Shown here: one piece after another, positions 5,392 to 20,300 of the stretch | Numbering within the stretch: the first letter of the stretch is position 1 | Layout: the number at the start of each line of letters is the position of its first letter | IMG/VR virus record: IMGVR_UViG_3300031851_000239 | Coordinates: 1 to 21,130 of that record | Source of the DNA: a virus | Strand: one strand, 5' to 3' | Length of the DNA: 21,130 nt | The notes under the pieces: model-generated | Seen by the model: only the letters and a program-made list of their open reading frames with translations | Databases searched by the model: none | Told to the model about the DNA's origin: nothing | Made by a program: the position numbers and the translations under genes

Positions 5392-5420
5392 TTGGCATTT
5401 ACCACAACATGTGGTAATAT
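5392..5420 (+). promoter_or_regulatory. Sigma70-like promoter ahead of the stabilization gene
   Basis: TTGGCA (5392-5397) and TAATAT (5415-5420) are separated by 17 bases, matching the sigma70 consensus at 5/6 and 4/6 positions. Transcription would start near 5427, giving a leader of about 22 bases to the ATG at 5450. The spacer is occupied by a 17-bp palindrome (5400-5416), suggesting repressor control. This is the clearest promoter-like site I see in the long rightward gene array. It is predicted from sequence only. Confidence 0.5.
5400..5416. promoter_or_regulatory. Operator-like palindrome 1 (7-3-7)
   Basis: TACCACA-ACA-TGTGGTA is a perfect 7-bp inverted repeat around a 3-bp centre. It lies between the putative -35 and -10 hexamers and overlaps the first two bases of the -10, the position expected for a repressor site. 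Its inner part ACAACATGTGGT (5404-5415) recurs with one change 30 bp downstream. Confidence 0.5.
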
Positions 5421-5433
5421 TTTCACGTCTGTA

Positions 5434-5445
5434 ACAACATGTTGT
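5434..5445. promoter_or_regulatory. Operator-like palindrome 2
   Basis: ACAACATGTTGT is a perfect 12-bp palindrome and matches 11 of 12 bases of 5404-5415, exactly 30 bp away, so the two copies lie on roughly the same DNA face. It falls just after the predicted transcription start and ends 4 bases before the ATG at 5450, taking the place where a Shine-Dalgarno sequence would normally be. A bound regulator could contact both sites. Confidence 0.45.
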
Positions 5446-5449
5446 GCCT

Positions 5450-6931
5450 ATGGCTTTAATTGACATTAAAATACCGCCGGGCGTTTACCGCAACGGTACA
5501 GATTTGCAGAGCGTGGGCCGCTGGCGCGACGCCAATCTTGTGCGTTGGGTGGATGGAACCATCCGCCCAATTGGCGGCTGGCGCATCCGAGCCACCACCG
5601 CCGCCGCCGCTAAAGTGCGCGGAATGATGGCTTGGTCGGACAATAGTTTGGACAGACGAATTGTCCTTGGGACATATAATAAATTATATTCGTACAACAC
5701 TTTTGGCACTCAATCAGATATTACACCAGCCGGACTTATTGCTGGGCGTGAGGACGGGGCGGCGCAAACCGGCTACGGTGGCGGGCTTTACAACGAAGGA
5801 TTTTATGGAACGCCGCGACTAGAATCAACGCGCATTGAGCCGGCTACAAGCTGGGCGCTGCAACCTTGGGGTGAATACTTAGTTGCGTGCAACCGCGATG
5901 ACGGCAAAATATATGAATGGCAATTAAACGGCTCGGTGCCGGCGGCTGTGTTGAGCAACGCCCCGACTGATAATCAAAGCATTGTTGTCACGCAGGAACG
6001 TTTCTTGCTGGCGTTGGGCGCAGACGGGAATAGCCGCAAAATTTCCTGGTGTGACCGCGAAAATAATACAGAATGGACACCTAGTGCGACAAACGAGGCG
6101 GGCGACATATTGCTGGAGACAACCGGCAAAATTATGGCCGGCGTACGAACACAAAACCAAACGATAATTTTAACCAGCACAGACGCACACAGCGTGACTT
6201 ATCAAGGTCCGCCCTATGTTTTCAGCATCGACCGAGTTGGGCAATCTTGCGGATTGGCCGCGCACTTAGCTTACGCCAGCGTTGATGCTGGGGTGTTCTG
6301 GATGGGCTTAAATTCTTTTTACGCGTTCAACGGAAACAACGTGCAAGAGCTGCCTTGTGATGTTTCGGATTACGTGTTTTCCAACATCAACCGCGCCCAA
6401 ATTGGCAAAACATTTGCCATGCCGTTGCAAGGCTACGGCGAAATATTTTGGTTTTACCCGTCCGAGGCGAGCACCGAAAACGACAGATATGTCGTGTACA
6501 ATTTCGTTGAGAACACTTGGTACATTGGCGAGCTTGCGCGCACTGCCGGAGCCGACGCCGGCGCATTTGCATTGCCAATGATGTGCAATCCTACCGACAA
6601 AAAAATATACGAGCATGAGGTGAGTTTTGCATATAGCGGTCTAACGCCATTCGCTGAAACTGGCCCGATTATGCTGGGGTCCGGCGAGAATGTGGCCAGC
6701 GTTACCGAAATGCTGCCCGATGAGAAAACGCAAGGCGACGTTACGGCCACTTTTAAAACGCGCTTCGCGCCGAATGGCACAGAGCGCTCGCATGGCCCAT
6801 ACAGCATGTCCAACCCGACGTCTTTGCGCTTTACTGGTCGTCAAATGCGAATGCGCCTGACCGGCGCGCGCTTGGCTGATTGGCGCGTTGGGATTAACCG
6901 GCTGGACGTTGTTGCCGGAGGGCGCCGTTAA
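5450..6931 (+). CDS. P22 gp10-like packaged-DNA stabilization / neck protein
   Basis: The 493-residue product begins M-A-L-I-D-I-K-I-P-P-G-V-Y-R-N-G-T, followed by G-R-W-R-D-A-N-L-V-R-W and R-P-I-G-G-W. This opening is characteristic of a podoviral family annotated as stabilization protein and compared with P22 gp10, the plug protein that seals the portal after packaging. The body has repeated strand motifs (Y-L-V-A-C-N-R-D-D-G, I-I-L-T-S-T-D-A-H, V-F-W-M-G-L-N-S-F-Y-A-F-N-G) suggesting a beta-propeller-like region. An in-frame GTG at 5444 is possible, but the family begins at M-A-L, so ATG 5450 is preferred. Neither start has a clear Shine-Dalgarno sequence; palindrome 2 occupies that place. 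The stop overlaps the next ATG by one base. Confidence 0.75.
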   Translation: MALIDIKIPPGVYRNGTDLQSVGRWRDANLVRWVDGTIRPIGGWRIRATTAAAAKVRGMMAWSDNSLDRRIVLGTYNKLYSYNTFGTQSDITPAGLIAGREDGAAQTGYGGGLYNEGFYGTPRLESTRIEPATSWALQPWGEYLVACNRDDGKIYEWQLNGSVPAAVLSNAPTDNQSIVVTQERFLLALGADGNSRKISWCDRENNTEWTPSATNEAGDILLETTGKIMAGVRTQNQTIILTSTDAHSVTYQGPPYVFSIDRVGQSCGLAAHLAYASVDAGVFWMGLNSFYAFNGNNVQELPCDVSDYVFSNINRAQIGKTFAMPLQGYGEIFWFYPSEASTENDRYVVYNFVENTWYIGELARTAGADAGAFALPMMCNPTDKKIYEHEVSFAYSGLTPFAETGPIMLGSGENVASVTEMLPDEKTQGDVTATFKTRFAPNGTERSHGPYSMSNPTSLRFTGRQMRMRLTGARLADWRVGINRLDVVAGGRR

Positions 6932-14509: not shown

Positions 14510-14513
14510 ATCA

Positions 14514-14556
14514 ACATATAGTGTTTAGCGTCTAATTTTTACTACATATAGTATTT
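14514..14556. repeat. Direct repeat pair CATATAGT(G/A)TTT, 30 bp apart
   Basis: ACATATAGTGTTT (14514-14526) and ACATATAGTATTT (14544-14556) differ at one base and are exactly 30 bp apart in the gap between the portal and the next gene. Each includes TATAGT, a -10-like hexamer, but no convincing -35 sits 17 bases upstream. They could be tandem promoters, including phage-specific ones, or protein-binding sites. The gap is AT-rich compared with neighbouring genes. Confidence 0.4.
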
Positions 14557-14561
14557 CTGTT

Positions 14562-14593
14562 AAAATCCCGGCGAAGCGATTTGCCGGGATTTT
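14562..14593 (+). terminator. Hairpin (terminator or processing site) after portal
   Basis: AAAATCCCGGC (14562-14572) and GCCGGGATTTT (14583-14593) form a perfect 11-bp stem with a 10-base loop. The 3' arm ends in four T followed by C, so it resembles a modest intrinsic terminator and is symmetrical enough to act on both strands. It also covers GGGA (14586-14589), the only Shine-Dalgarno-like sequence for the ATG at 14596. Confidence 0.6.
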
Positions 14594-20051: not shown

Positions 20052-20300
20052 TTACGGCGCAACCCGCCAGTACGTGACGTTAAGTTCCCAATCTTCAACC
20101 AGCCAGCCTTTGCGGATTAACGATTGCAAAACCTTATGTGACGAGCTGACCGACTTGCGTTGCTTCATCATTTGCTCGCCGTCAATTTTACCTAAGCAAA
20201 TTTCACGCAATGATGGGCACCGGCCAAGCTCTTTCCAATGGTCCCGCACAAAACAGAACATCTCGTGCTGCGTGCGGGTAAGTGGGCTACGTTCTTTCAA
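20052..20300 (-). CDS. LexA-type winged-helix DNA-binding protein (82 aa)
   Basis: The minus-strand gene starts at TTG 20300, preceded by AAAGGG with a seven-base spacer, and overlaps the upstream stop (TTGA). The 82-residue protein has S-P-L-T-R-T-Q-H-E-M-F-C-F-V-R-D-H-W-K-E-L-G-R-C-P-S-L-R-E-I-C and later S-S-S-H-K-V-L-Q-S-L-I-R-K-G-W-L. This is the order of the LexA N-terminal winged helix (L-T-x-x-Q, then P-(T/S)-L-R-E-I, recognition helix, L-x-x-K-G). There is no LexA autopeptidase domain, so it is a stand-alone DNA-binding protein, probably a regulator of phage genes. Its target is unknown. The gene ends four bases from the convergent nuclease gene. Confidence 0.75.
   Translation of the reverse strand: MKERSPLTRTQHEMFCFVRDHWKELGRCPSLREICLGKIDGEQMMKQRKSVSSSHKVLQSLIRKGWLVEDWELNVTYWRVAP

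Follow-up and report, generated by a model that had tools for sequence, protein, structure and literature searches.

The promoter (P1) that precedes the stabilization gene in the window, which comprises all 21,130 bases of IMG/VR virus record IMGVR_UViG_3300031851_000239, is one of three late promoters that share paired dyad boxes; we put at roughly 0.6 the probability that the three form a late regulon with a single phage-encoded reader, most likely an 82-residue truncated LexA-type winged helix-turn-helix (HTH) protein. This reading is carried by computed observations: the conservation of P1, the pairing of the boxes, their recurrence at three promoters, their agreement within genomes and the co-occurrence of the HTH gene. 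The transcription starts, binding by the HTH protein and the sign of control are predicted from sequence. The preliminary description had proposed a dedicated switch for the stabilization gene, a claim that we abandon, as box pairs of the same kind also lie at the late promoters P2 and P3.

In the proposed mechanism, host σ70 RNA polymerase would recognize P1 (before the stabilization gene), P2 (after the terminase gene) and P3 (after the portal gene) via an extended −10 element. Each promoter of the window lineage would carry two short dyad boxes, 30 to 31 bp apart, overlapping or flanking the core promoter, and one phage-encoded DNA-binding protein, most likely the 82-residue protein, would read them all. 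It would occupy both boxes, which at a separation of about three helical turns face roughly the same side of the DNA, and the tail, head and lysis genes would be timed together through the shared boxes. For an uncultivated marine phage group, the model offers a concrete, testable late-gene circuit built from three promoters, one defined type of box, a rule for its spacing and a protein that leads the candidates. A Rhodobacterales host is probable, since this order accounts for most of the relatives found within bacterial assemblies and Octadecabacter is the host of the nearest isolate. The papers searched for published roseophage late-promoter motifs contained nothing of relevance.

Table 1. 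Coordinates of the promoter elements, boxes and genes discussed, numbered from the first base of the window
Feature	Position	Strand	Remarks
P1 core promoter, TTGGCA-17-TAATAT, extended −10 (TGG before TAATAT)	5392..5420	+	predicted start ~5427
P1 box O1, ACAACATGTGGT	5404..5415	+	right half overlaps extended −10
P1 box O2, ACAACATGTTGT, perfect dyad in leader	5434..5445	+	invariant in all members
Gene predicted to be driven by P1: virion structural protein, P22 gp10-like stabilization protein (phrog_3287, E 3.5e-84)	5450..6931	+	
P3 box A, TCAACATATAGT	14511..14522	+	directly after portal stop codon; conserved in four relatives
P3 box B, ACTACATATAGT	14541..14552	+	starts 30 bp after box A
P3 promoter-like TTTACT-17-TAAAAT, TG before −10	14538..14566	+	layout kept in G037
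Hairpin AAATCCCGGC-loop-GCCGGGATTT	14563..14592	+	predicted P3 start (about 14573) inside loop
Small gene after P3	14596..14838	+	abuts portal gene in genomes without detected HTH
82-aa truncated LexA-type winged HTH, candidate box reader	20052..20300	−	Pfam LexA_DNA_bind E 3.1e-6, above cut-off

Architecture and conservation of P1

The hexamers TTGGCA (5392 through 5397) and TAATAT (5415 through 5420) are separated by 17 bp, with the TG of an extended −10 at 5412 and 5413; this TGn is kept at the same gene start in relatives, which places P1 among σ70 extended −10 promoters. The promoter is thus present where the preliminary description had put it, but the hexamers alone prove nothing, because matches of their score (9/12) are common (19 in 20 kb against 14.8 expected from shuffles), and the match by itself is not significant. 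The palindrome noted in the spacer also holds only in part: TACCACA-ACA-TGTGGTA (palindrome 1) occupies 5400 through 5416, but its long arms are a peculiarity of this window. It is centered on 5408 and the 12-bp unit that O1 shares with the second box on 5409/5410; the two are different dyads. The second palindrome and its offset were confirmed, the shared units starting exactly 30 bp apart.

The protein that starts at 5450 served to fetch 80 relatives; the closest of them, together with the hits of further pattern scans, amount to 13 sequences, of which 11 are distinct. Only five positions vary between the −35 hexamer and the ATG in these 11, and the box starts are always 30 bp apart. Against this near-invariance, 19 of 100 third codon positions are invariant in the first 300 bases of the gene, and the 100 bases upstream of P1 show an average position-by-position agreement of 40%. 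The expectation that the paired palindromes would persist in relatives with the same gene order was borne out, as every window-clade relative that retains the junction has both promoter and boxes.

Three of the five variable positions (5400, 5401 and 5403) lie in the left outer arm of palindrome 1, and the 12-bp unit is its only conserved part. This bears on whether palindrome 1 is instead the intrinsic terminator of the upstream fibre gene. A terminator scan lists it with an 8-bp stem, a 3-nt loop and a T-rich tail, but the stem has only three G-C pairs, the T-rich tail belongs to the −10 region and the outer arm is broken in most relatives. With that arm unconserved the terminator reading is unconserved too, and we rejected it as very improbable.

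The ATG had been described as lacking a Shine-Dalgarno sequence, and its predicted anti-Shine-Dalgarno pairing (−1.4 kcal/mol) is indeed the weakest among 18 window starts tested. The same leader contains an overlapping six-codon frame, ATGTTGTGCCTATGGCTTTAA (5434 through 5459), which crosses the real start codon; its stop is changed from TAA to TAG in L106 and is still a stop. Control at the level of RNA could exploit a leader without a Shine-Dalgarno sequence: in RNA reading through from P2, O1 would pair with O2 in a 10-bp stem that ends shortly ahead of the start codon and blocks the gene, whereas RNA from P1, without the 5′ arm, would be translated. The stem is predicted in the read-through RNA, both arms are invariant and the window clade has no clear terminator upstream. 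However, two copies of one dyad are automatically complementary, and the folding energy does not go beyond that of shuffles (z −1.2 to −1.7). Late promoters of phage T4 are nested in hairpins that hide the ribosome site, and P1 is similarly flanked by two complementary arms right ahead of a start codon; unlike in T4, boxes are present at P2 and P3 as well, which have no comparable arrangement and where they cannot act on a start codon in this way. We regard RNA-level control as improbable.

The paired boxes are absent from more distant relatives (about 61 to 70% identity), most of which have an extended −10 of the form TRTGnTA, often with a terminator upstream, and a normal Shine-Dalgarno sequence, which the gene of the window clade lacks. 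P1 is missing from G037. The gene before P1 is freely exchanged in L003 through L011 and in many distant relatives, and many frames upstream of P1 end in a similar TWPxxP-type tail right before the stop codon, which suggests a shared C-terminal tag on interchangeable fibre-region proteins.

Box pairs at P2 and P3

P1 and P2 sites, among them the P2 site of L266 (79% terminase identity), suggested the consensus ACNACATRTNGT; it was fixed before P3 was seen, although some of the sites behind it belong to the same genomes. Scanning the window with it returned two pairs, 5404/5434 and 14511/14541, both 30 bp apart. With a pair defined as two boxes scoring 9/10 or better and 30 to 31 bp apart, the window holds two and 200 dinucleotide shuffles of it none; neither 200 shuffles of each of eight genomes nor five real genomes that lack the window's box type contained a pair. 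The same dyad is thus found at several promoters, at fixed spacing and above chance, as in a paired-operator regulon. The search of the genome and its relatives for box pairs that had been suggested at the outset added pairs at P3 (window and relatives) and P2 (relatives). Four contigs from outside the family (L092, L097, L101 and L102) also contain pairs, which were judged to be chance; those in L092 and L102 lie in an unrelated coding region. A box in G037, ACAACGTGTTGT, was discarded because it is located inside the coding sequence of a ribbon-helix-helix (RHH) protein.

P2 lies outside the window and was seen in close relatives. The closest, L003 (a 33.9-kb record), has a second copy of the P1 core, ACAACATATGGTAATATTTT, shortly after its large terminase gene; six contigs including L003 share this core, and in every one of them a further ACAACAT lies 31 bp upstream. 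A −35 hexamer is missing from P2, whose upstream box is weak (about 7/10). A 31-bp box pair is found at P2 of G037, and TRTGnTA follows directly after the terminase gene in most of the wider family sampled. In L254, P2 is kept despite ∼1.2 kb of other sequence after the terminase gene, and the genes downstream continue into homologs of the first genes of the window.

The ∼1.2 kb in L254 (2017 through 3249) holds two reverse-strand frames (137 and 121 aa) between terminase and P2, and P2 stays with the downstream genes; reverse-strand genes likewise follow the terminase gene in L265 through L267. Directly after P2 in L239, L246 and L254, the first frame encodes a basic peptide of 23 aa that contains an AT-hook-like KRGRPPKK; in L246 it reads MPSGKGTYGTKRGRPPKKGGKKK. 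Exact copies of the 17-mer ACAACATATGGTAATAT in 17 contigs of unrelated context were set aside, being expected by chance at this collection size.

At P3, box B overlaps the −35 region. G037 (71 to 72% portal identity) has a diverged P3 sequence with the same order of elements: two boxes 30 bp apart, extended −10 and hairpin. Since the predicted P3 start falls in the hairpin loop, RNA from P3 would carry the 3′ arm only and read-through RNA the whole hairpin. P3 also overlaps a hairpin, of ATACCCAA..TTGGGTAT type, in L364 (G046), L368 (G045), L369 (G020) and G036; it seems that P3 is repeatedly built as a promoter inside a terminator-like hairpin.

The boxes of one genome resemble each other more than those of other lineages. 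In the 37.7-kb record G045, probably complete because the record ends split the portal gene, the 17-mer TGTGGTAATATTATACC has exactly three copies, one each at P1, P2 and P3; G036 and G020 have the same core. When P1 and P2 cores were compared across nine genomes, those of the same genome matched each other better than those of different genomes (permutation p 0.002, with sites picked by eye and lineages that are not independent). This likeness within genomes and unlikeness between lineages points to one trans-acting reader. When each genome without the HTH gene was searched for further copies of its own P1 core (≤5 mismatches), nothing promoter-like was found.

The candidate reader

The HTH protein, first put forward purely by inference, emerges as the best candidate for reading the boxes. 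Its model is a winged HTH (pLDDT 88), with LexA among the best structural hits, none of which is below E 0.001. Homologs are found in the window clade (82 to 98%), in G037 (42%) and in the G045/G020 group (about 33%), and the search of the other family genomes yielded none. P3 accompanies the HTH gene in 10 of 11 genomes with a visible portal junction, the window among them, and is missing from all 7 where the HTH was not found, in which the portal gene abuts the next gene; the comparison is confounded by shared ancestry, and some of the records without the HTH are incomplete. The exception is G049, which has an HTH homolog (32%) and no P3. A box was sought in the early region of the HTH gene itself and none was found.

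The boxes might instead be read by the RHH protein, whose gene opens the rightward early block, or by a host regulator, the LexA-type protein being a bystander in the same module. RHH proteins commonly bind tandem or paired dyads, and the genomes that encode the HTH have RHH homologs as well. Yet the RHH proteins of G045 and G046 are identical over about 60 residues while the P3 boxes of these genomes differ, as do their LexA-type proteins in the recognition helix; this contrast, a single comparison, favours the LexA-type protein over the RHH protein. A conserved host regulator would leave the lineage-specific boxes unexplained, and we consider either of these readers unlikely.

Sign of control and related systems

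For the LexA-type protein as reader, we lean slightly, at little better than even odds, toward repression at P1: with O1 on the −10 and O2 spanning about +8 to +19, a bound protein would occlude the promoter. The same regulon with the opposite sign, in which the truncated LexA-type protein activates the late promoters and the palindromes are activator sites, has in our estimate a little less than an even chance. The missing −35 hexamer of P2, the position of box B at P3 and the precedent of GIL01 gp6, whose palindrome overlaps the −35 of a late promoter (PMC6182141), are consistent with activation; O1 overlaps the −10 at both P1 and P2, an unusual place for an activator, as is that of O2 at P1, downstream of the predicted start. 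Box centers lie at about −17.5/+12.5 (P1), −48.5/−17.5 (P2) and −56.5/−26.5 (P3) from the predicted starts, and this lack of a fixed position counts against activation and is also a counterpoint to the regulon reading as a whole.

GIL01 gp6 appears to be the closest characterized precedent. It is a truncated LexA homolog without the C-terminal domain that activates the GIL01 late promoter P3 (Fornelos et al. 2018, PMC6182141) through a single palindrome, GaCACAC GTGTGaC, centered at −43.5, together with host LexA boxes (PMC6182141). The candidate here is likewise a small phage-encoded homolog of the LexA DNA-binding domain (82 aa, no C-terminal protease domain), with palindromic sites at late promoters; gp6 controls capsid and lysis genes. 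Unlike the single GIL01 palindrome near −43.5, the present sites are two boxes 30 to 31 bp apart at three late promoters, and unlike the GIL01 activator system they have an unrelated box sequence and belong to a different phage group and host. One phage protein acting at dyad sites common to several late promoters is also known for the C protein of phage Mu and Ogr of phage P2 (cf. PMC4461284); these are unrelated to the candidate HTH, are activators with sites upstream of or at the −35, and are not known to have 30-bp paired boxes overlapping the −10.

More tentatively, and at somewhat below even odds, a stand-alone LexA-type DNA-binding domain may control all late units of a marine tailed-phage lineage via paired dyads, with the operators of the three promoters changing together while the protein diverged. 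Truncated-LexA control of late genes would then extend from a Bacillus phage to an unrelated phage group. The ACNACATRTNGT and TGTGGTAATATTATACC lineages would let one ask how a regulator and several operators shift specificity together and, if the idea is true, form a natural series of regulator-operator co-evolution.

Two further boxes, ACCACATATTGT and TCTACATGTCGT (TCTACATGTTGT in L241), lie 18 bp apart upstream of the small terminase gene (L003, 31289 through 31318; L112, about 2586 through 2615 on the reverse strand; L241, 4448; L246, 2294 on the − strand) and are possibly a fourth regulated promoter with another spacing. In L241 the pair is preceded by TTTTGGCA, as at P1.
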